IMG/VR virus record: IMGVR_UViG_3300020469_000306
Location: 1 to 21,456 of that record
Direction: 5' to 3' (one strand)
DNA: 21,456 nucleotides
Origin: a virus
Shown: one piece after another, positions 1 to 16,612 of the stretch
Numbering within the stretch: position 1 is the stretch's first letter
Layout of the letters: every line of letters begins with the position of its first letter
The notes under the pieces: model-generated
The model's database searches: none
What the model saw: the letters and a program-made list of their open reading frames with translations, nothing else
Told to the model about the DNA's origin: nothing
Translations under genes and position numbers: made by a program

Positions 1-299
1 GCCTTGAAGACACCTCGGAGAGCTTCGGTCTTCCTGCCACTGCTGACTTTATGTTTGCGCTTATTAGCACCGAAGAATTACAAGACTTAAACCAAATAAT
101 GTGTAAACAATTAAAAAATAGATATGCTGATCCTAATATAAATAAAAGGTTCGTCATAGGAATTGATAAATCTAAAATGAGACTTTTTGATGTAGAACAA
201 GAAGCTCAAGAAGATATTATTGATGGGCCTGTATTTGATAATACAGACATAGGACAAAATATGAAACAACCTAATGAGCTTTTTAAGGATTTTACATGA
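1..299 (+). CDS. 41: Replicative DNA helicase, gp41/DnaB-like, C-terminal fragment
   Basis: The reading frame is open from the window edge (codons in phase from base 3), so the gene starts upstream and only about 98 C-terminal residues are present. The visible start reads SESFGLPATADFMFAL, followed by EELQDLNQIM and KQLKNRYADP. I recognise this as the end of the RecA-fold helicase of marine T4-type phages, the ring helicase that unwinds the fork and works with the gp61 primase. A gp61-like primase is present at 13286, which fits. The tail after residue 70 is acidic and probably disordered. The ATG at 51 is an internal Met, not the start. The Walker motifs are off the window, so the family call rests on the C-terminal segment only. 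Confidence 0.68.
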   Translation, partial: LEDTSESFGLPATADFMFALISTEELQDLNQIMCKQLKNRYADPNINKRFVIGIDKSKMRLFDVEQEAQEDIIDGPVFDNTDIGQNMKQPNELFKDFT

Positions 300-553
300 C
301 GCTTACTCCAAATTATAAATTACAAACTAGAAGAAAAAAAAATCAGCCATGGCAATATGAGGTACTTGAAACACAAACTCATTTAGTTGTCAGAAAATAT
401 TCTAAAAAAGCATTAGCATCTAATATGTGTCAACATTTAAATCTTGGTGGAGGTTTTGATGGTTTTACTCCAGCATTTATAGTGAGTGATGCACCTTCTA
501 TGGCACCAATAGATATAAATGAGGCATTTAAAGAAATCATAAATAACTTATAG
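296..553 (+). CDS. Conserved small phage protein, unknown function
   Basis: This 85-residue basic protein starts at an ATG overlapping the helicase stop codon (ATGA), so translation is probably coupled. The N-terminal half holds KNQPWQYEV and a run of beta-prone residues. The middle has HLNLGGGFDGFTPAF, a glycine-rich stretch that looks conserved. There are no membrane segments and no catalytic motif I can name. Similar small proteins with an RKNQPWQYEV-type start occur in marine T4-type phages as far as I recall, without a known function. Its place directly after the helicase suggests a replication-linked role, but that is inference. Confidence 0.72.
   Translation: MTLTPNYKLQTRRKKNQPWQYEVLETQTHLVVRKYSKKALASNMCQHLNLGGGFDGFTPAFIVSDAPSMAPIDINEAFKEIINNL
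514..521 (+). promoter_or_regulatory. Possible weak late promoter (TATAAATG)
   Basis: The octamer TATAAATG differs in its last base from the T4 late promoter word TATAAATA and lies 44 bases before the ATG at 565. It is inside the coding end of the preceding gene. In DNA this AT-rich such near-matches arise often by chance. The only support is that the next gene carries a capsid-targeting N-terminus and should be expressed late. Confidence 0.22.
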
Positions 554-564
554 GAGTTATTAAA

Positions 565-1914
565 ATGGAATCTTATGCAAATTTTTTAGCTGAATCAATA
601 GACCCTATTATTCTTGATATTTTGAGGGGTGTTAAATATTCTGAAAGCGATGCAAAAAATAAAACTATCATAACAATTCATGAAAATGATAGATTCACTG
701 CAAAAGAAAATTTAGAAAAAAAATTAAAAGCTAAAAATGTATCCTTTAAAGATGGAGTAAAGTCATCTAGTTCAATTGATATTTTATCTACTGATTTCAG
801 ATTCAATGATAAGGACTATAGAGTATTTTTTAAACCTGCAAAACAAGGTTCAGGAGCAGGTGATGAAATGACAGCATTGGGAGAATCATTTCAAGCATAT
901 GCATCTTCAGCTAGACAAAGTTTAGGTAGAATATTAATGTCAGGTGAGGATGTTTTTGATCTAAAACCTAAAAATGTTGATGCTGATAGAACATTAGAAC
1001 AATGTAAAAAATTGCCTTCAAATTGGATCAATACAGGAATTGTTATCGGTAACGCTTTTAATAGAGAGTTAGGATCTAGTACATACAAATTCCATAGAGG
1101 GTCTACATTAGTAAAACAGATTAATAATGAATATAAACTTCTTAGTAGAAAAGAAGGTATAAGGTTAAATATCAATAAATGGAACCCTGCAGACATATGG
1201 GCAGCTACCACAAATTTTAGATTAGAAACTGGATGGAATACTTTAGCAGAATTTAATCAATATTTGTTAGATAAGTTTATTGATAAGGAATTAATAGGTG
1301 TATCTCTTAAAATGCTCTCAGGTCCCACTGCCAAGAAAGAAATCTTTAATAAAGAAAAATCAAAACTTGAAGTAAGATTCAATTCATATGAAATAGTTAA
1401 TAAGAATAAAGATTTTTTTAGTGCTGATGTAGCTAAAGATGCCTATTTGTTTTATACCGTCAACGGTAAAAACCAATCGATGCAATTAAGAACTTTTTCT
1501 GCAGGAGTGTCTGGATGGCAGGGTGAAATAAAAGGTAAATCAGCTGCAGGAGGTAAAGTTGGTGGAGGTAATTTAGAACAGGCATTAATACTTGCAGGTA
1601 TTAGATCGACTAAATTTATAAATCAAACGAAATTCAAACCATATGCAAATAAAGGTGACGATAAAACTTTATTATCGTACATCACTATGTACAAGTATCT
1701 CTCAAAAGATAAAAGACAAAATCAAGAGCTCTTAGAGTTGGCTAGAAATCAATATAAGACCAAAGGTAAAGGTTGGTTTTATAGTAAATTTTTAAGTATT
1801 CAATATATTTACAATTTGATAACATCTGGTAAACAAAATGAGATTATGAAACAGATATCTCTAATAGCTTCCTCAAGTACAGACGTCAGTTCTGTATTTT
1901 ACAAATACTCGTAA
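565..1914 (+). CDS. Capsid-targeted protein, candidate PD-(D/E)XK-type nuclease
   Basis: The 449-residue product begins MESYANFLAES, which matches the T4 internal-protein capsid-targeting sequence (MKTYQEFIAEA type), including the L-A-E site after which the gp21 prohead protease cuts. This predicts packaging in the capsid and possible ejection into the host. The body holds YRVFFKPAKQGSGAG with a following TALGE, then KWNPADIW (residues 205-212), then LIGVSLK ending at Lys249. The order E, D210, SLK resembles a PD-(D/E)XK nuclease core with Ser in place of the second acid; this is inference from spacing and context. A Gly-rich segment (about residues 318-335) follows. The start is supported by TAGGAG upstream. 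If the nuclease reading is wrong, it is an internal protein of unknown role. Confidence 0.6.
   Translation: MESYANFLAESIDPIILDILRGVKYSESDAKNKTIITIHENDRFTAKENLEKKLKAKNVSFKDGVKSSSSIDILSTDFRFNDKDYRVFFKPAKQGSGAGDEMTALGESFQAYASSARQSLGRILMSGEDVFDLKPKNVDADRTLEQCKKLPSNWINTGIVIGNAFNRELGSSTYKFHRGSTLVKQINNEYKLLSRKEGIRLNINKWNPADIWAATTNFRLETGWNTLAEFNQYLLDKFIDKELIGVSLKMLSGPTAKKEIFNKEKSKLEVRFNSYEIVNKNKDFFSADVAKDAYLFYTVNGKNQSMQLRTFSAGVSGWQGEIKGKSAAGGKVGGGNLEQALILAGIRSTKFINQTKFKPYANKGDDKTLLSYITMYKYLSKDKRQNQELLELARNQYKTKGKGWFYSKFLSIQYIYNLITSGKQNEIMKQISLIASSSTDVSSVFYKYS
1878..1900 (+). terminator. Possible weak terminator at the end of the capsid-targeted gene
   Basis: TACAGA and TCTGTA form a 6-bp stem around a 7-nt loop, followed at once by TTTT. 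It lies inside the last codons of the gene ending at 1914 and ahead of a new promoter at 1966, where a terminator would make sense. The stem is short and AT-rich, so the call is tentative. Confidence 0.3.
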
Positions 1915-1943: not shown

Positions 1944-1960
1944 ATTTTTGTCACAAAAAT
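1944..1960. repeat. Perfect palindrome upstream of first early promoter
   Basis: ATTTTTGT, a central C, then ACAAAAAT form a perfect 8-bp inverted repeat ending five bases before the -35 box of the promoter at 1966. It could be an operator or a small stem-loop. The 12-mer TATTTTTGTCAC at 1943-1954 recurs with one change (TATTTTTGTGAC) inside the promoter spacers at 3046-3057 and 3613-3624, which makes a protein-binding site more likely than chance. Confidence 0.45.
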
Positions 1961-1965
1961 AACTG

Positions 1966-1994
1966 TTGACTTTTATTAAAAAGTATCCGATAAT
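1966..1994 (+). promoter_or_regulatory. Early sigma70-type promoter P1 (type A repeat)
   Basis: TTGACT, a 17-nt spacer, then GATAAT lie in the gap before the metallopeptidase gene. The segment 1951-2008 is repeated almost exactly at 2409-2465, with two substitutions and one deleted base. The -10 box ends 27 bases before the ATG at 2022, leaving room for the leader with its AAGGAA ribosome-binding site. Confidence 0.75.
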
Positions 1995-2021
1995 TAATTA
2001 TAAAGTTAAGGAATAGTTATT

Positions 2022-2420
2022 ATGAATTATGTTGAAACAATAGGTGGTAAGAAATATCAGAGACAGCTTGCAGAGCAAGTTGTAGATTTTTGTATAAGAA
2101 GTTTAATGCCCCGATATTCTACATTAGATATATCTGTAAATATAGACGACTTGAACAAGGATAATGTTAAAGGTTGGTGCATGTCAATATGTCAAAGAGA
2201 ATTTGAAATAGAAGTTGATAAAAATCAATCAGATGAAAATTTAATTAAAACAATATGTCATGAGATGGTTCATGTATGGCAACATGCTTCAGGTAAATTA
2301 TATTGTGATCATTGGAATAATGTAGATCATACTGAAACTGAATATGCAAAAAGACCATGGGAAATACAAGCATATGAAATGGAAGAAACTTTACAAAAAA
2401 AGTTTTTATCACGAAAATAA
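2022..2420 (+). CDS. SprT-like zinc metallopeptidase
   Basis: This 132-residue protein has a clear HExxH zinc site, CHEMVHVWQHA, with His80, Glu81 and His84. A later Glu (Glu114 in RPWEIQAYEME) is well placed as the third ligand. This layout is typical of SprT-like minigluzincins, which in cells cut DNA-bound proteins. In a phage it could trim host DNA-binding proteins or DNA-protein crosslinks, but the substrate is unknown. No signal peptide or membrane segment is present, so it should be cytoplasmic. It is the first gene of the early-type array and has its own promoter at 1966. The stop codon lies within the next promoter repeat. Confidence 0.72.
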   Translation: MNYVETIGGKKYQRQLAEQVVDFCIRSLMPRYSTLDISVNIDDLNKDNVKGWCMSICQREFEIEVDKNQSDENLIKTICHEMVHVWQHASGKLYCDHWNNVDHTETEYAKRPWEIQAYEMEETLQKKFLSRK

Positions 2421-2423
2421 CTG

Positions 2424-2452
2424 TTGACTTTTATTAAAAAGTATCCGATGAT
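2424..2452 (+). promoter_or_regulatory. Early sigma70-type promoter P2 (type A repeat)
   Basis: TTGACT, 17 nt, GATGAT. The repeat containing it (2409-2465) copies the one at 1951-2008 and begins inside the last codons of the metallopeptidase gene. The -10 box differs from P1 by one base (GATGAT for GATAAT) and may be weaker. It would drive the gene at 2482. Confidence 0.62.
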
Positions 2453-2481
2453 TAATTATAAGTTAGAAAAAAGGAAAAAAA

Positions 2482-2778
2482 ATGATTAAAGTATACCAAT
2501 TAAATTCAGAAACATTAGATAAAATTTATCCACAGTCACCCTTTCAATATAGTAAAGATGATAAGAAACTATTTGATATTGATGAGCATTTGAATAGTTA
2601 TGTACATGTAGCTAATATTGATTGTACATCTCTCAATGATGCATTTCAAATTGGCAATATTGGTCCTAATAGTAAAATTGAAAGACTAAAGGAGATGCGT
2701 TCTATTTCAGTAGGTGATATATTACAATTAGGTGGTTATAAGTTCATCGTTGATGGCATGGGTTTTCATAGAATATAA
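2482..2778 (+). CDS. Small early-region protein, possibly YodL-like
   Basis: The 98-residue product is soluble and mixed in charge. Its C-terminal half carries DAFQIGNIGP, MRSISVGDIL and KFIVDGMGFHRI. This pattern of a GNIGP turn, an SVGD strand and a closing GF is one I loosely associate with YodL-like small domains of bacteria and phages; that is a memory match and not firm. Expression is expected from P2 just upstream, with AAAAGGAAAAA before the ATG as ribosome-binding site. No enzyme motif is visible. It probably belongs to the variable set of host-takeover genes, judged only from its size and position. Confidence 0.68.
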   Translation: MIKVYQLNSETLDKIYPQSPFQYSKDDKKLFDIDEHLNSYVHVANIDCTSLNDAFQIGNIGPNSKIERLKEMRSISVGDILQLGGYKFIVDGMGFHRI

Positions 2779-2791
2779 GAAAGGAAATAAT

Positions 2792-3031
2792 ATGGAAAAT
2801 ATATTCAAATTAAATAATTTAGAAGTTACAGACGTAGAAGTTGATGGTATTGATATGAAAGACTATCCAGACTTTTGCGATGCTTATATAGAATCTGCTA
2901 AATTCAAAGGAACTGGTGTTGAGCTAGATGACAATGAGTTAGTTGAATTACTAGAAGCTAATCAAGATGCTTTTTTTGAAGCAGTAAATGACGAAGTATT
3001 ATCTATTTGTGATAGACATTATTCAAATTAG
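2792..3031 (+). CDS. Small acidic phage protein, unknown function
   Basis: I place the start at the ATG at 2792 because AAGGAAAT stands seven bases before it and the previous gene stops at 2778; the longer frame from 2732 would overlap that gene heavily. The 79-residue product is very acidic. It contains DGIDMKDYPDFCDAYIESA and, further on, ELDDNELVELLE. The DYPDFCDAYI segment is one I have seen in small proteins of marine T4-type phages with no known role. Acidic small early proteins often act as DNA mimics or inhibitors, but nothing here proves that. It is probably co-transcribed with the gene at 2482. Confidence 0.7.
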   Translation: MENIFKLNNLEVTDVEVDGIDMKDYPDFCDAYIESAKFKGTGVELDDNELVELLEANQDAFFEAVNDEVLSICDRHYSN

Positions 3032-3034
3032 CTG

Positions 3035-3063
3035 TTGACTTTTATTATTTTTGTGACTATAAT
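3035..3063 (+). promoter_or_regulatory. Early sigma70-type promoter P3 (type B repeat)
   Basis: TTGACT, 17 nt, TATAAT, starting four bases after the stop codon of the preceding gene. The 32 bases 3032-3063 recur without change at 3599-3630. The first 13 bases of the repeat (CTGTTGACTTTTA) are shared with P1 and P2, but the rest of the spacer differs and contains TATTTTTGTGAC. Confidence 0.8.
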
Positions 3064-3095
3064 TAATATATAAGATGAAAAAGAAAGGAAATAAA

Positions 3096-3311
3096 ATGGG
3101 AAAAGTTAAGAATTTATTGATGGATATGCAGGATGATGTATACGCAATATTAGATAACGATACTATTCTTGGTTGCGAATGTTTTGAGGAGTTTCTAGCA
3201 AAAGTATGGAGACTTGATGGATTTGATGCATTGTTAGCAAAGTATAGTGCATATGATATCAAAGGTATATTACAAGATGGTTGGAATGATTATTGGGGAG
3301 GATACTTATAA
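3096..3311 (+). CDS. Small early-region protein, unknown function
   Basis: The start at 3096 is chosen over the in-frame ATG at 3075 because AAAGGAAAT lies just before it, the same arrangement as in the neighbouring gene at 2792. The 71-residue product is acidic and helical in outlook. It has ILDNDTILGCECFEEFLAKV in the middle and ends ILQDGWNDYWGGYL, an aromatic-rich tail. There is no membrane segment or known domain. P3 is immediately upstream. The stop overlaps the next start by one base (TAATG), so the two are probably translated together. Confidence 0.68.
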   Translation: MGKVKNLLMDMQDDVYAILDNDTILGCECFEEFLAKVWRLDGFDALLAKYSAYDIKGILQDGWNDYWGGYL

Positions 3312-3598
3312 TGATTTGTTCAAGTAGGTCAAGAGACAAGTTTGTCAAAGAAGGATTGAGTGGGAGTGCAGCTAAGTATAAGGCCACTTATTTGTATGTT
3401 TATCTTGCTGATAAAATTAAGTTAGCTCAAGCTAATGTTCGTAGAGATCCTGGTAATGAGCTTCATCAGTATTATTTAAACAATCTCAAGCGTAACAAAA
3501 CTATTCTTCTAAAAGAAAAAAATGAAGATAAAGTTAATTATATTCTAGATAAACTTTACAGTGATTTAAACTATGAATTTAATTTAGGTGGAAAATAA
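3311..3598 (+). CDS. Small basic early-region protein, unknown function
   Basis: The 95-residue product from the ATG at 3311 is basic and mostly helical, with repeated Leu and Lys and the segment ADKIKLAQANVRRDP. The start at 3311 is preferred over 3293 because GGGGAGG sits about nine bases before it and it overlaps the previous stop by one base. No catalytic motif is visible. A Lys/Arg-rich helical protein of this size could bind nucleic acid, but this is only a guess from composition. It shares a transcript with the gene at 3096, and its stop codon directly precedes promoter P4. Confidence 0.68.
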   Translation: MICSSRSRDKFVKEGLSGSAAKYKATYLYVYLADKIKLAQANVRRDPGNELHQYYLNNLKRNKTILLKEKNEDKVNYILDKLYSDLNYEFNLGGK

Positions 3599-3601
3599 CT
3601 G

Positions 3602-3630
3602 TTGACTTTTATTATTTTTGTGACTATAAT
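3602..3630 (+). promoter_or_regulatory. Early sigma70-type promoter P4 (type B repeat)
   Basis: TTGACT, 17 nt, TATAAT, an exact copy of P3 over 32 bases. The -35 box begins four bases after the stop of the gene ending at 3598, and GAAGGAAAAA at 3643-3652 then serves the ATG at 3660. Confidence 0.8.
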
Positions 3631-3659
3631 AAAGTATAAAGTGAAGAAGGAAAAATAAA

Positions 3660-3821
3660 ATGTTTAATTATGATACGATTATAAAGCAATTAGAAGCAAT
3701 GTCATCTACAGATCAAGATGAGTTTGCTAAGAAATTACTAGACAAAAATGGTGGATTAGCAGTAACCCTTTCTACTAAAATTAATATAGCCCATCAGGAT
3801 AAATTTTATGCTGATGAGTAA
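3660..3821 (+). CDS. Small early-region protein (53 aa), unknown function
   Basis: A 53-residue frame starts MFNYDTIIKQLEAM and ends HQDKFYADE. It is placed exactly where a gene is expected, behind promoter P4 and an AAGGAAAAA ribosome-binding site. The product looks like two helices joined by an NGG turn, with no cysteines or membrane segment. Its last eight bases overlap the start of the next frame. No family is recognised. Coding status is supported by the promoter, the ribosome-binding site and the overlap with the next frame. Confidence 0.6.
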   Translation: MFNYDTIIKQLEAMSSTDQDEFAKKLLDKNGGLAVTLSTKINIAHQDKFYADE

Positions 3822-3969
3822 TAGGGTTTTAGAAAAAAGAATCGATAATGCTATGACAGCTCTTGAATTTTGTAGAGATAGTAAATCGGAATGGGGTGTT
3901 CAATATTGGTCTAATGTTCTTGGTACTTTACTAAGAAAAATGAGAAGGAGTGTTGACTTTGTCAGTTAA
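3814..3969 (+). CDS. Small early-region protein (51 aa), unknown function
   Basis: This 51-residue frame overlaps the previous gene by eight bases. The product reads MSNRVLEKRIDNAMTALEFC at the start and is a probable single long helix with a tryptophan-rich middle (WGVQYWSN) and a basic end (LLRKMRRS). No clear ribosome-binding site precedes it, so translation is probably coupled to the gene before. Its last codons hold both the ribosome-binding site of the next gene (AGAAGGAG) and the -35 box of promoter P5. Confidence 0.55.
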   Translation: MSNRVLEKRIDNAMTALEFCRDSKSEWGVQYWSNVLGTLLRKMRRSVDFVS

Positions 3970-3981
3970 AGAAGATATAAT
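3953..3981 (+). promoter_or_regulatory. Early sigma70-type promoter P5, inside coding sequence
   Basis: TTGACT, a 17-nt spacer, then a perfect TATAAT. It shares TGTTGACTTT with P1-P4, but its spacer is unrelated because it lies in the overlap of two reading frames. Transcripts from it would begin near 3988. They would carry AAAGGAAT and the in-frame ATG at 4004, giving a shortened form of the next protein, and also the gene at 4117. Confidence 0.6.
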
Positions 3982-4120
3982 ATATGCTATAAAGGAATCC
4001 AAGATGATGGGTTTAGATAGTAAGGATGCAATTATTAATAGTGCATCTAGATTAGCTAACGTACCTGCTTCTTGGGTAAGTGATGTTTATAATGATATAA
4101 TGAAAGGAAATTATAAATGA
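3959..4120 (+). CDS. Small early-region protein (53 aa), TTG start
   Basis: The frame has no ATG before 4004, but TTG at 3959 is preceded at eight bases by AGGAG and gives a sensible N-terminus, followed by KEDIIYAIKESKMMGLD. The C-terminal part has SRLANVPASWVSDVYNDIM, a helix-turn-helix-like pattern that could bind DNA, though the protein is very short. An alternative TTG at 3953 is too close to the ribosome-binding site. A second start at 4004 (38 residues) would be served by AAAGGAAT on transcripts from P5. The stop overlaps the next start (ATGA). The family is not known to me beyond similar small phage proteins ending in SWVSDVY. Confidence 0.6.
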   Translation: MSVKEDIIYAIKESKMMGLDSKDAIINSASRLANVPASWVSDVYNDIMKGNYK

Positions 4121-4335
4121 GTAATCAGAGATTTGGTAAGACCCATAAGGCGTCCGGTTTTGATAACGGTGCAGGTATGAAACTACTTCAGTTTTTCAAG
4201 TATGCTAGAATAGAATGTGAGGATGCTGATAGAAAAGAAGCTGCTTTCTATTTTGGACAGATTGAAGATCATTTGAGATCTGGAAAAGGCCTGCCTTCAG
4301 AGCAAAATTCTATTATGAAAGTCCTCGGGTTATAA
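4117..4335 (+). CDS. Small early-region protein (72 aa), unknown function
   Basis: The start overlaps the preceding stop as ATGA. The product begins MSNQRFGKTHKASGFDNGAG and then has a helical segment, LLQFFKYARIECEDADRKEA, followed by a short end. The two cysteine-poor halves show no domain I can name. It is the last member of the early-type array; the intergenic gap after it holds a late promoter word instead of another TTGACT promoter. This makes 4335-4340 a likely border between early and late transcription units. Confidence 0.62.
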   Translation: MSNQRFGKTHKASGFDNGAGMKLLQFFKYARIECEDADRKEAAFYFGQIEDHLRSGKGLPSEQNSIMKVLGL

Positions 4336-4339
4336 TTAG

Positions 4340-4347
4340 TATAAATA
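4340..4347 (+). promoter_or_regulatory. T4-type late promoter (TATAAATA)
   Basis: A perfect copy of the T4 late -10 word lies in the short gap between the early array and the late block, 25 bases before the ATG at 4372. In T4 this element is read by host RNA polymerase with the phage late sigma factor gp55 and the gp33 co-activator. The octamer occurs by chance several times in DNA of this composition, so its intergenic place before a virion-type gene is the real support. Confidence 0.6.
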
Positions 4348-4371: not shown

Positions 4372-5598
4372 ATGAAAAAATTTTCAACATATCTAGCAGA
4401 GTCTAACAACTCCCACATGGAACATTTGGAAGACAATGTTCTTAATAGAGGAGTTGATGGCGCTAGAGAAGCCATTAACTTTATACAATCTCTTCGTGAC
4501 ATGCTTGCTGGTCGTACTGACAATAGAATGAATGTATCAGTAAAATGGGATGGAGCTCCAGCTATATTTGCAGGAATAGATCCAACTGATGGCAAATTTT
4601 ATGTCGCAAAAAAATCAATCTTTAATACAACACCTAAAGTATATAAAACTCCAGCTGACGTTAAAAAAGATACTTCTGGGGATCTCCAAAGTAAAATGCT
4701 AAAAGCATTAAAACATTTACCTAAACTTGGTATTAAGGATATATGTGTACAAGGTGATTTTTTATATGAAAAAGGAGACCTTGAATTACAAAAAATTGAA
4801 AAAGAAAATTATATAACATTTCATCCTAATACTATATTATATGCAATTCCAGCTAAAACTCCCTTAGGTTCAAAACTTAAAAAGAGTGAAATAGGTGTTG
4901 TATGGCATACCACTTATACAGGTAAGACCTTTCAGACAATGGAGGCTTCATACGGTAAAGCTATAGCCTCACGTTTAAAAAAGACACCTAATGTTTGGTC
5001 AGTAGATGCTATATATAAGGATGTTTCAGGTAACCTTGGTATGACGTTTGAGGAAACAAGTCAGATTACAGCTGAATTACGTATTGCTGGTCAAATATTT
5101 AAAAAAACAAAAGCAAAATATCTCAATCAAATTTCTAATAATGAATTAGTTAAAGGTAAGATAAAAACGTTTCTAAACTCATATATTAGAGACGGACAAA
5201 GTTGGCCAACAGGTATGACTCTAGCACAATCCTTTATGGAATATATAACAGCTTTTTATGAAAAAGAAGAAGCAAAACGGAAGTCAGAAAAAGGTAAGGC
5301 CACGGTTAGAGAAAAGAAAAAAGAATTCATGAAAGTATTATCTGATCCAATATCATTAGCCAACATATTTAATCTTATGCATAAAATTGTTGTATGTAAG
5401 CATATGATAGTTAAAAAAATGGATCAAGCTGGTCATACTAAAACATTTTTAAAAACAAAAACTGGATATAGAGTAACAGGACAAGAGGGTTATGTTGCTA
5501 TAGATCGTATTGGTAATAAGGCTGTAAAACTAGTAGATAGACTTGAATTCAGTTATGCTAATTTCTCTCCAGAAATTATAAAAGGTTGGCAACGGTGA
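4372..5598 (+). CDS. Capsid-targeted KxDG nucleotidyltransferase-like protein (DUF6267-like)
   Basis: The 408-residue product starts MKKFSTYLAES, a match to the T4 capsid-targeting sequence with an L-A-E cleavage site at residues 8-10. Further in, VKWDGAPAIFAG carries Lys58-W-D-G, the form of motif I in the ligase and capping-enzyme superfamily, where the Lys is charged with AMP or GMP. QGDFLYEKGDLE (127-138) and EIGVVWHTTYTG (173-184) stand where motifs III and IV would be. I recall the same trio in cyanophage proteins of DUF6267. Enzymatic activity is inference; the C-terminal motif V is not clear. The start is supported by ACGAGG upstream and the late promoter at 4340. The gene overlaps the next one. 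Confidence 0.65.
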   Translation: MKKFSTYLAESNNSHMEHLEDNVLNRGVDGAREAINFIQSLRDMLAGRTDNRMNVSVKWDGAPAIFAGIDPTDGKFYVAKKSIFNTTPKVYKTPADVKKDTSGDLQSKMLKALKHLPKLGIKDICVQGDFLYEKGDLELQKIEKENYITFHPNTILYAIPAKTPLGSKLKKSEIGVVWHTTYTGKTFQTMEASYGKAIASRLKKTPNVWSVDAIYKDVSGNLGMTFEETSQITAELRIAGQIFKKTKAKYLNQISNNELVKGKIKTFLNSYIRDGQSWPTGMTLAQSFMEYITAFYEKEEAKRKSEKGKATVREKKKEFMKVLSDPISLANIFNLMHKIVVCKHMIVKKMDQAGHTKTFLKTKTGYRVTGQEGYVAIDRIGNKAVKLVDRLEFSYANFSPEIIKGWQR

Positions 5599-14314: not shown

Positions 14315-16612
14315 ATGGCTGATATAATAATAACAAAAAGAGATGGTACAAAAGAATTATTAGACTTAAATAAATTTCATAAAGTAGTTTCATGGGCATG
14401 TGATAAATTAAAAGGTGTTTCTGCTTCTGAAGTAGAGTTAAAATCTCATATACAATTTTTTGATCAGATGAAATCGTCTGACGTGCAAGAAACATTAATT
14501 AAGGCTGCAGCAGACCTTATAACTGAAGAATGTCCTAACTATCAATATGTTGCTGGTAGGCTTATTAATTATCAATTAAGAAAAGAAGTATATGGACAAT
14601 ATGACCCTATATCATTGTTTAAACACGTAGAAAACGTCGTAGAAAAGGGGTTCTATGAACCAGCATTGTTAGAATGGTATACTGTAGAAGACTATGAAAA
14701 ACTTGATAAAAACATAGATCATACCAGAGATGATATATTAACATATGCTGCAATGGAACAATTCAGAGGTAAATATCTAGTTAAAAACAGAACTACAAAT
14801 GAGATATTTGAGACACCTCAAATAGCCTATATGCTAATATCAATGACATTATTTAAAGATGAAAAGGTAGATAGGTTAGATAGAGTTATTGATTTTTATA
14901 ATTCATTATCTCTATTTGATATATCATTACCAACACCAATTATGTCTGGAGTTAGAACATCTGTAAGACAGTTTAGTTCATGTGTATTGGTTGAAACAGA
15001 TGATACATTAGATTCAATAAATGCAACATCTAGTGCAATAGTGAAATATGTTTCAAAAAAAGCAGGTATAGGTATCGGTGCAGGAAATATTAGAGCTTTA
15101 GGCTCTTCAATAAACGGGGGTTATGCCACTCATACAGGTGTAATACCATTCTTCAAACTGTTTCAATCAGCAGTAAAATCCTGTTCTCAAGGTGGTGTAA
15201 GAGGAGGTGCAGCAACATTATATTATCCATGTTGGCATCTTGAAGTAGAGGATATACTTGTCCTCAAAAATAATAAAGGAACTGAAGATAATAGAATTAG
15301 ACATTTAGATTATGGAGTGCAATTCAATAAGTTAATGTATGAAAGACTTATAAAAAATGAAAATATAACATTATTTTCACCATCAGATGTACCTGGACTT
15401 TATGAAGCATTTTATAGCGATCAAGAAAAATTTGAAGAATTGTATACAAAAGCAGAAAGATCATATAAGACGAGAAAAAGATCTATCAAAGCTATTGATT
15501 TATTTTCAGCTTTTATGACTGAAAGGAAAGATACTGGAAGGATATATTTAATGAATGTAGATCATGCTAATGATCATGGATCATTTAATCCAGAACTTGC
15601 ACCTATTAGACAATCTAATTTATGTTGTGAAATTGATTTACCAACAAAACCACTATCAAATATTAATGATGACCAAGGTGAAATTAGTCTTTGTACATTA
15701 GCTGCAATAAACTGGGGTAATATAAAATCCCCTGAGGATTTCAAGAAACCATGTGAAATGGCTGTAAGGGCATTAGATGCATTACTCACATATCAAGAAT
15801 ATCCTGTTAAAGCTGCAGAAGTAGGTACAATGAATAGAAGACCTTTAGGAATAGGTATAATAAATTTTGCTTATTGGATGGCAAAAAATAACATGAATTA
15901 TACTAATCCTAATTTGGATATGATAGATGAGTATGCTGAAGCATGGTCATATTATCTTATTGAAGCTTCAATTCAATTAGCTAGAGAAAAGGAGCATTGT
16001 TTATTAAATGATCAGACCAAATATTCTCAAGGTATATTTCCAAAAGACACTTATAAAAAAGATGTTGATGAATTGGTTGATAGAAAACCGACAATGAATT
16101 GGAATAAACTTAGAACAGATGTAAAGATATATGGTATTAGAAATTCAACATTAATGGCATTAATGCCTTCTGAAACATCATCACAAATATCAAATGCAAC
16201 TAATGGTATTGAGCCTCCAAGAGCATTTGTGTCAGTAAAACAATCAAAAGATGGTATCCTCAAACAAGTAGTACCACAATTTAGAAAATTTAAAAATAAA
16301 TATGAATTATTATGGGATCAGAAGTCCCCAGAAGGATATATAAAGATAGTATCAGTTCTACAAAAATGGATTGATCAAGGTATATCAGTAAATACATCAT
16401 ACAATCCTCAATTTTTTGATGAGGAAAAAATACCAATGAGTGTTATGTTAAAGCATATCATTATGTTCTATAAGTATGGTGGAAAACAATTATATTATTT
16501 TAATACATTTGATGGAGCAACAGATGAAATAGAAGCTCCTCAACATCATATAGAAGATTTTGACTTACCGGAAATAAATACTGAAGAGGACTGCGAAGCA
16601 TGCGTGTTATAA
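14315..16612 (+). CDS. nrdA: Ribonucleotide reductase class Ia, large subunit
   Basis: NrdA reduces ribonucleoside diphosphates to deoxyribonucleotides and forms a complex with NrdB, encoded next. The 765-residue protein (E. coli 761) keeps all key residues. Cys223 and Cys460 form the redox pair at the active site. Asn435, Cys437 and Glu439 lie in SNLCCEI, with Cys437 as radical site. Tyr727 and Tyr728 in KQLYYFNT are the radical-transfer path. The C-terminal CEACVL has Cys760 and Cys763 for reduction by glutaredoxin or thioredoxin. The N-terminus (KRDGTKELLDLNKFHKVVSW) is an ATP-cone-like domain that senses ATP/dATP. GGGGA precedes the ATG. The gene ends 13 bases inside nrdB, so the two subunits are translationally coupled. 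Confidence 0.95.
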   Translation: MADIIITKRDGTKELLDLNKFHKVVSWACDKLKGVSASEVELKSHIQFFDQMKSSDVQETLIKAAADLITEECPNYQYVAGRLINYQLRKEVYGQYDPISLFKHVENVVEKGFYEPALLEWYTVEDYEKLDKNIDHTRDDILTYAAMEQFRGKYLVKNRTTNEIFETPQIAYMLISMTLFKDEKVDRLDRVIDFYNSLSLFDISLPTPIMSGVRTSVRQFSSCVLVETDDTLDSINATSSAIVKYVSKKAGIGIGAGNIRALGSSINGGYATHTGVIPFFKLFQSAVKSCSQGGVRGGAATLYYPCWHLEVEDILVLKNNKGTEDNRIRHLDYGVQFNKLMYERLIKNENITLFSPSDVPGLYEAFYSDQEKFEELYTKAERSYKTRKRSIKAIDLFSAFMTERKDTGRIYLMNVDHANDHGSFNPELAPIRQSNLCCEIDLPTKPLSNINDDQGEISLCTLAAINWGNIKSPEDFKKPCEMAVRALDALLTYQEYPVKAAEVGTMNRRPLGIGIINFAYWMAKNNMNYTNPNLDMIDEYAEAWSYYLIEASIQLAREKEHCLLNDQTKYSQGIFPKDTYKKDVDELVDRKPTMNWNKLRTDVKIYGIRNSTLMALMPSETSSQISNATNGIEPPRAFVSVKQSKDGILKQVVPQFRKFKNKYELLWDQKSPEGYIKIVSVLQKWIDQGISVNTSYNPQFFDEEKIPMSVMLKHIIMFYKYGGKQLYYFNTFDGATDEIEAPQHHIEDFDLPEINTEEDCEACVL

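Follow-up and report, generated by a model that had tools for sequence, protein, structure and literature searches.

A probable family of early sigma-70 promoters in a hypervariable small-gene locus of a T4-like marine phage

Genes and relatives of the locus

The stretch of DNA analyzed here (21,456 bp, hereafter the window) was judged from its gene content to be a fragment of a T4-like marine myovirus. Besides the end of a DnaB-like helicase gene and a DUF6267/phrog_455 gene, it carries cytidyltransferase-like, primase, NrdA, and RuvC-like genes. No match was found when a phage collection was searched for DNA similarity to the window, and the DUF6267 protein is at most 48.5% identical to those of named phages, the nearest being Stenotrophomonas DLP6, C48C1, Melnitz (a Methylophilales phage, 44%), and HTVC008M (a pelagiphage, 38%). 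The nearest relatives are two uncultured contigs, L030 (149.5 kb, the same as G001) and L119/L189 (18.1 kb), which are about 98-98.5% identical to each other; their DUF6267 proteins are 80% identical, and their helicase C-termini 89% identical, to those of the window. Because L030 and L119 are the only two syntenic relatives found, and are mutually 98.5% identical, few independent events can be dated in the window's own lineage.

Small genes and promoter-like sites lie between the helicase and DUF6267 genes (Table 1). As the initial annotation had stated, the genes between the promoters are mostly of unknown function; its further suggestion that they are host-takeover factors found no backing, the only clear fold examined being that of the SprT-like zinc protease. 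The HExxH motif of this protein is invariant, and its AlphaFold model (pLDDT 85) is matched best in the PDB by 6mdw, a DNA-protein-crosslink repair protease, a moderate match (E 0.003, TM 0.49). An N-terminus resembling MGKVxxxxMDMEE was observed in otherwise unlike small early proteins of the window (3096-3311), L194 (3780), L031 (1224), and G001 (near 16583). A 20-nt identity between the MGKV ORF and L194 was considered as a recombination joint and rejected, since the similar N-terminal motif in L031 and in the G001 gene points to a shared protein motif.

The T4 capsid-targeting layout, in which residues 4 and 7 serve targeting, and residues 8 and 10 processing (PMC9026906), is matched by the N-termini of the g565 (MESYANFLAES) and DUF6267 (MKKFSTYLAES) ORFs, the only two such ORFs in the window, and by that of Melnitz gene 15 (MQGFKTFLSEA). 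The pattern was found in 76 of 81 DUF6267 homologues, with L076, L080, and L273 listed as further loci, and the DUF6267 protein may be a packaged, injected head protein. Both genes are preceded, at about 27-32 nt, by CATAAATA or TATAAATA; the TATAAATA octamer is not enriched in the window. Melnitz gene 15 was rejected as a homologue of g565, as no match was obtained. A pattern search of viral contigs revealed no relatives of g565; some are present in DUF6267 loci.

Table 1. Features of the locus, with window positions.
Feature	Position	Strand	Remarks
DnaB-like replicative helicase, C-terminus	3..299	+	phrog_19, 4e-19; conserved left border
g296, small ORF	296..553	+	homologue in L030, 50%
g565	565..1914	+	phrog_1462; N-terminus like T4 capsid-targeting sequence; CATAAATA about 27 nt upstream
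Promoter cassette P1	1944..2021	+	-35 TTGACT 1966, -10 GATAAT 1989-1994; A-tract upstream; ATG 27 nt downstream
SprT-like zinc metalloprotease	2022..2420	+	HExxH, phrog_10499
Promoter cassette P2	2403..2481	+	-35 TTGACT 2424, -10 GATGAT 2447-2452
MIKV ORF	2482..2778	+	weak YodL-like match PF14191, 0.0012, below cutoff; 51-52% identity in L030/L119
MENI ORF	2792..3031	+	absent from L030/L119; at most 66% identity (74 residues) with ORFs of unrelated viral contigs
Promoter cassette P3	3015..3095	+	-35 TTGACT 3035, -10 TATAAT 3058-3063
MGKV ORF	3096..3311	+	only N-terminal MGKVxxxxMD motif common with small ORFs of L194, L031
MICS ORF	3311..3598	+	54% in L119; cleanly deleted in L030
Promoter cassette P4	3582..3659	+	-35 TTGACT 3602, -10 TATAAT 3625-3630
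MFNY ORF	3660..3821	+	53% to syntenic L030/L119; at most 79% to about 70 loci, other phages
MLMS ORF	3808..3969	+	66% in L030
P5, TTGACT-17-TATAAT	3953..3981	+	within overlapping genes
MTLS ORF	3965..4120	+	64% in L030
MSNQ ORF	4117..4335	+	78% in L030; last gene of early cluster
TATAAATA, late-promoter-like box	4340..4347	+	about 32 nt before DUF6267 gene; same box in L030
DUF6267/phrog_455 gene	4372..5598	+	PF19782 2e-102; conserved right border; capsid-targeting-like N-terminus

The promoter family

The pattern TTGACT-17-(T/G)AT(A/G)AT occurs five times on the plus strand within 1944-4335 (at 1966, 2424, 3035, 3602, and 3953), whereas 2000 dinucleotide shuffles of this interval gave a mean of 0.0025 and a maximum of 1; it is absent from the window's minus strand. 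A relaxed promoter scan gave no excess (54 sites versus 52 in shuffles), and two further 11/12 hexamer-pair matches within the same 10 kb, one of them antisense, indicate that such pairs arise by chance. The five annotated sites are all present but not equivalent, P5 being probably a chance match outside the cassette family. It has only the two hexamers in common with P1-P4, gave no match to the cassette profile (nhmmer, E=10), and is not conserved in L030 or L119.

P1 and P2 have a 36-nt exact repeat and are 95% identical over 59 nt, and P3 and P4 have a 32-nt exact repeat, whereas in 100 window shuffles the longest exact repeat was at most 20 nt (mean 15.4); the description of P1-P4 as repeats was confirmed. 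So was the placement of four of the five promoters at stop codons, which lie 3 nt before the start of P2, P3, and P4, and are spanned by P5; the stop upstream of P1 is about 50 nt away. Each of P1-P4 occupies the stop-to-start gap between neighboring genes. The UP-like A-tract of P2-P4 reaches into the end of the preceding gene (in P2, across the protease gene's final codons and stop), which explains why these promoters appear to start at stop codons. The -10 box of P2, GATGAT, is weak.

A cassette profile built from seven sites (four in the window, three in L030) detected, at E<0.01, 4 cassettes in the window and 12 in G001 (149.5 kb), 9 of the latter being absent from the profile-building set. 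All share a strand and point in the direction of the genes after them. The G001 cassettes are spread over 15.8-83.6 kb, with three in the interval homologous to the window's; three promoters are kept in unchanged order in the syntenic L030 and L119. Alignment on the -35 box revealed a common AAAAWAACTG before TTGAC, a 17-nt spacer, and TATAAT. From -46 to -40, A is found in 14, 14, 15, 13, 8, 16, and 13 of the 16 cassettes; T is found at -38 in 14 of 16 and is also dominant around -56 to -51. The A-dominated and T-rich segments together have the layout of a UP element. In most of the 16 cassettes the upstream stop is located between -34 and +3 relative to the -35 box, and in most the ATG follows the -10 box by 27-36 nt. 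The exact core CTGTTGACTTTTATTA occurs in 25 stretches of viral contigs, mostly non-promoter, and was for that reason rejected as a cross-phage mobile element.

Judged from their sequence, P1-P4 are likely to be genuine early sigma-70 promoters, and we infer early activity and use by the host polymerase. Their match to the T4-like early build and the family of 12 in G001 agree with the early role first assigned to them.

Gene turnover between conserved borders

The distance between the helicase and DUF6267 genes spans 855 to 5174 bp in 60 loci with both borders conserved, and the content of the gap varies. Hyperplastic regions are characterized by gene content that differs among relatives while the core genes on either side are conserved, and the interval is a further example of such a region, a hypervariable early-gene locus between the DnaB-like helicase gene and the late DUF6267 gene. 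Compared to L119, the window has g565 as an extra gene between g296 and P1, has an extra MENI-P3-MGKV block between MIKV and MICS, and lacks a 38-aa ORF found after P2. The g565 gene is absent from both L030 and L119, and in L031 it lies directly upstream of the DUF6267 gene, on the other side of the small-gene cluster, so that gene order changes too. The initial annotation had held that stable gene content would speak against it, and content was found to vary strongly; genes are gained, lost, and permuted among relatives, as it predicted, but, in the few events examined, not with endpoints at the repeats.

The clearest event is the loss of MICS from L030 relative to L119, a clean 280-bp deletion at 98.5% identity. 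The flanks align end to end without overlap and without detectable microhomology, and the MIKV ORF of L030 now ends with the NYPK tail of MICS, two reading frames having been joined. The downstream promoter is intact, no promoter lies between MIKV and MICS, and no promoter repeat lies at either end of the deletion. Ten other indels in relatives have ends 0-44 bp from an ORF start or stop; none of the ten has a sigma-70 site of at least 10/12 within 80 bp of its ends, although these relatives may have a promoter consensus unlike that used in the scan. In one case, upstream of the DUF6267 gene, a gene of ~780 bp was gained or lost between L075/L055 and L073/L076 at a 26-27-bp direct repeat, which is the coding start of two capsid-targeting-like proteins and not a promoter.

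For MENI and MFNY, the closer relatives, or the only ones, are found in unrelated phages; similarity begins at the RBS or ATG, with different promoters. MFNY was considered as a proven horizontal swap, which identity favors (79% versus 53%), and was rejected as such; one clade with L030/L119 is compatible with the tree test (p-AU 0.198), so that a swap is only suggestive. Upstream of MFNY in ~70 loci (L120-L188), varying sequences were observed, with a TTTACA-type promoter and changing AT-rich palindromes. The group of contigs with MENI/MFNY homologues also includes carriers of cytochrome b, all filed as viral. A full-length copy (PF00033, 2e-78) is found at 2423-3628 of L194, where it is preceded by a small copper-protein-like ORF (by eye), and copies 86-91.5% identical to it occur in L120, L121, L135, L138, L139, L141, and L142. 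One possibility is that cytochrome b is an auxiliary metabolic gene of T4-like phages.

Explanations and comparison with known systems

We consider it highly probable that the locus as a whole is explained by a family of early sigma-70 promoters combined with gene turnover at ORF borders. P1-P4 belong to a family dispersed through the genome, whose members would be strong early promoters used by the host sigma-70 RNA polymerase and would fire right after infection, as T4-like early promoters do within minutes and without phage protein synthesis. Each unit consists of a UP-like element that is rich in A/T, with the A-tract at -46 to -40, then GTTGACT, a 17-nt spacer, and a TATAAT-type -10 box, with the RBS and ATG ~27-33 nt past the -10 in P1-P4. 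The four promoters would divide the small early gene cluster into independently started, probably overlapping operons, with no terminators separating them. Genes would enter and leave at ORF borders, mostly through non-homologous or very-short-homology joins, while the resident promoters stay; promoter units would occasionally be copied within the genome. As a phage design this is ordinary, an array of early promoters at a hypervariable T4-like locus.

The likeness of the promoters might instead reflect constraint only, that is, an extended strong-early-promoter consensus with neither copying nor recombination. The long G001 consensus, which extends from the UP-like region into part of the spacer (ATTTTTGTGA), and the closeness of P3 and P4 to it, are in line with this reading. 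However, P1 and P2 are 87% identical over 67 nt, compared to 66-69% for window-G001 orthologous promoter pairs over the same footprint (identity 0.69 for both P1-g66004 and P2-g65518), and their common spacer TTTATTAAAAAGTATCC departs from the consensus. In G001, 90% identity is seen between the promoters at 16583 and 27368, which are separated by almost 11 kb, and three promoters of this genome have an identical 17-nt spacer. We therefore regard constraint only as rather unlikely. Pairs closer to each other than to their orthologues are not what constraint alone would give and, with ~67 nt per promoter, suggest occasional copying or conversion within the genome, likely although short of proof; such copying would account for P1 and P2 being more alike than orthologous promoters. 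A more specific proposal, that terminator-free promoter-only units copy between gene gaps (P1 to and from P2; G001 16583 to and from 27368) and give arriving genes resident early control, is put forward tentatively and is itself doubtful. If true, small genes that arrive without a promoter would fall under the early control already resident in the genome.

The initial annotation had favored a mechanism modeled on PeSLs, reportedly promoter-early stem-loop cassettes known from Arbiol 2010 and Comeau 2014 (cited in PMC4503421), in which the repeated promoters are homologous recombination sites that exchange gene modules between phages. It would fit the position of the repeats at gene borders, the closeness of P1 and P2 relative to their orthologues, the several gene differences from L119/L030 that fall between promoters, and the sharing of MENI and MFNY with unrelated phages. 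The structural and comparative findings nevertheless make it improbable, although a rare repeat-mediated exchange, for example P3 x P4, may have taken place. No stem-loop is found at P1-P4 (folding z-scores -0.32, 1.08, 0.89, and 0.35), no terminator-like site was found near them, and in P2-P4 there is no space for a stem-loop between the stop and the -35 box; thus, the defining PeSL feature fails. In addition, neither the MICS loss nor any of the ten indels ends at a detected promoter, the MIKV-MICS insertion contains P3 in its interior and not at its ends, and the similarity of shared genes to those of unrelated phages begins at the RBS or ATG, with unrelated promoters on the two sides. Elsewhere, PeSL-like arrangements were read directly in L194 (MGKV-like gene) and L196 (MENI), where a perfect hairpin and its T-run lie upstream of a sigma-70 promoter. 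Chance occurrence of functionless boxes in AT-rich sequence, which the flat relaxed scan and P5 would suit, is extremely improbable, and for P1-P4 the tests of repeats and conservation have already ruled it out, given the 36- and 32-nt exact repeats, the five exact-pattern sites, the conserved positions in L030/L119, and the 12 more copies in G001.

The initial annotation is therefore partly supported: its observation was largely right and its regulatory reading is likely right, whereas its recombination mechanism is unsupported by the events that could be examined. With the promoter family and ORF-border turnover as the preferred explanation, small early genes in this uncultured marine T4-like lineage turn over at ORF borders with resident promoters retained, and the locus is a natural counter-example to repeated early promoters alone driving gene swapping. 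The promoter consensus is also usable for finding early genes in this phage group.

T4-like early promoters have a UP/-35/TGn/-10 build with an A-rich segment at -40 to -44 (PMC2988021), and their -35 box is GTTTAC or, in RB49, RB43, and Aeh1, GTTGAC-like with G preferred at -33 (PMC1524935). The window's promoters have in common with those of T4, RB69, RB49, RB43, and Aeh1 the sigma-70 -35/-10 boxes, an extended consensus, and ~17-nt spacing, as well as the A-rich UP region around -40 to -44 and many dispersed, gene-sense copies before small early ORFs, novel ones included. The GTTGAC of the window family, with G at -33, is as described for RB49, RB43, and Aeh1 (PMC1524935, PMC2988021). Unlike T4-like early promoters, the window cassettes are very compact, fill the stop-to-ATG gap, and partly overlap the upstream gene; several family members have the spacer motif ATTTTTGTGA, and the TGn extended -10 is found only in some G001 copies. 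Melnitz and HTVC008M are marine T4-like relatives by their DUF6267 gene, and Melnitz has 31 predicted early promoters (PMC9004378); its helicase-DUF6267 gap holds one gene without an early array, in contrast to the array of small early genes in the window. PeSLs, in which an early promoter is joined to a stem-loop (terminator), resemble the window in having early promoters repeated at the borders of small variable genes in a hyperplastic region; the window differs in having no stem-loop or terminator, and the gene loss and indels observed among its relatives have their endpoints away from promoter repeats. The hyperplastic regions of T4-like genomes and the window locus both consist of a variable small-gene block between conserved core genes, with no essential difference between them.
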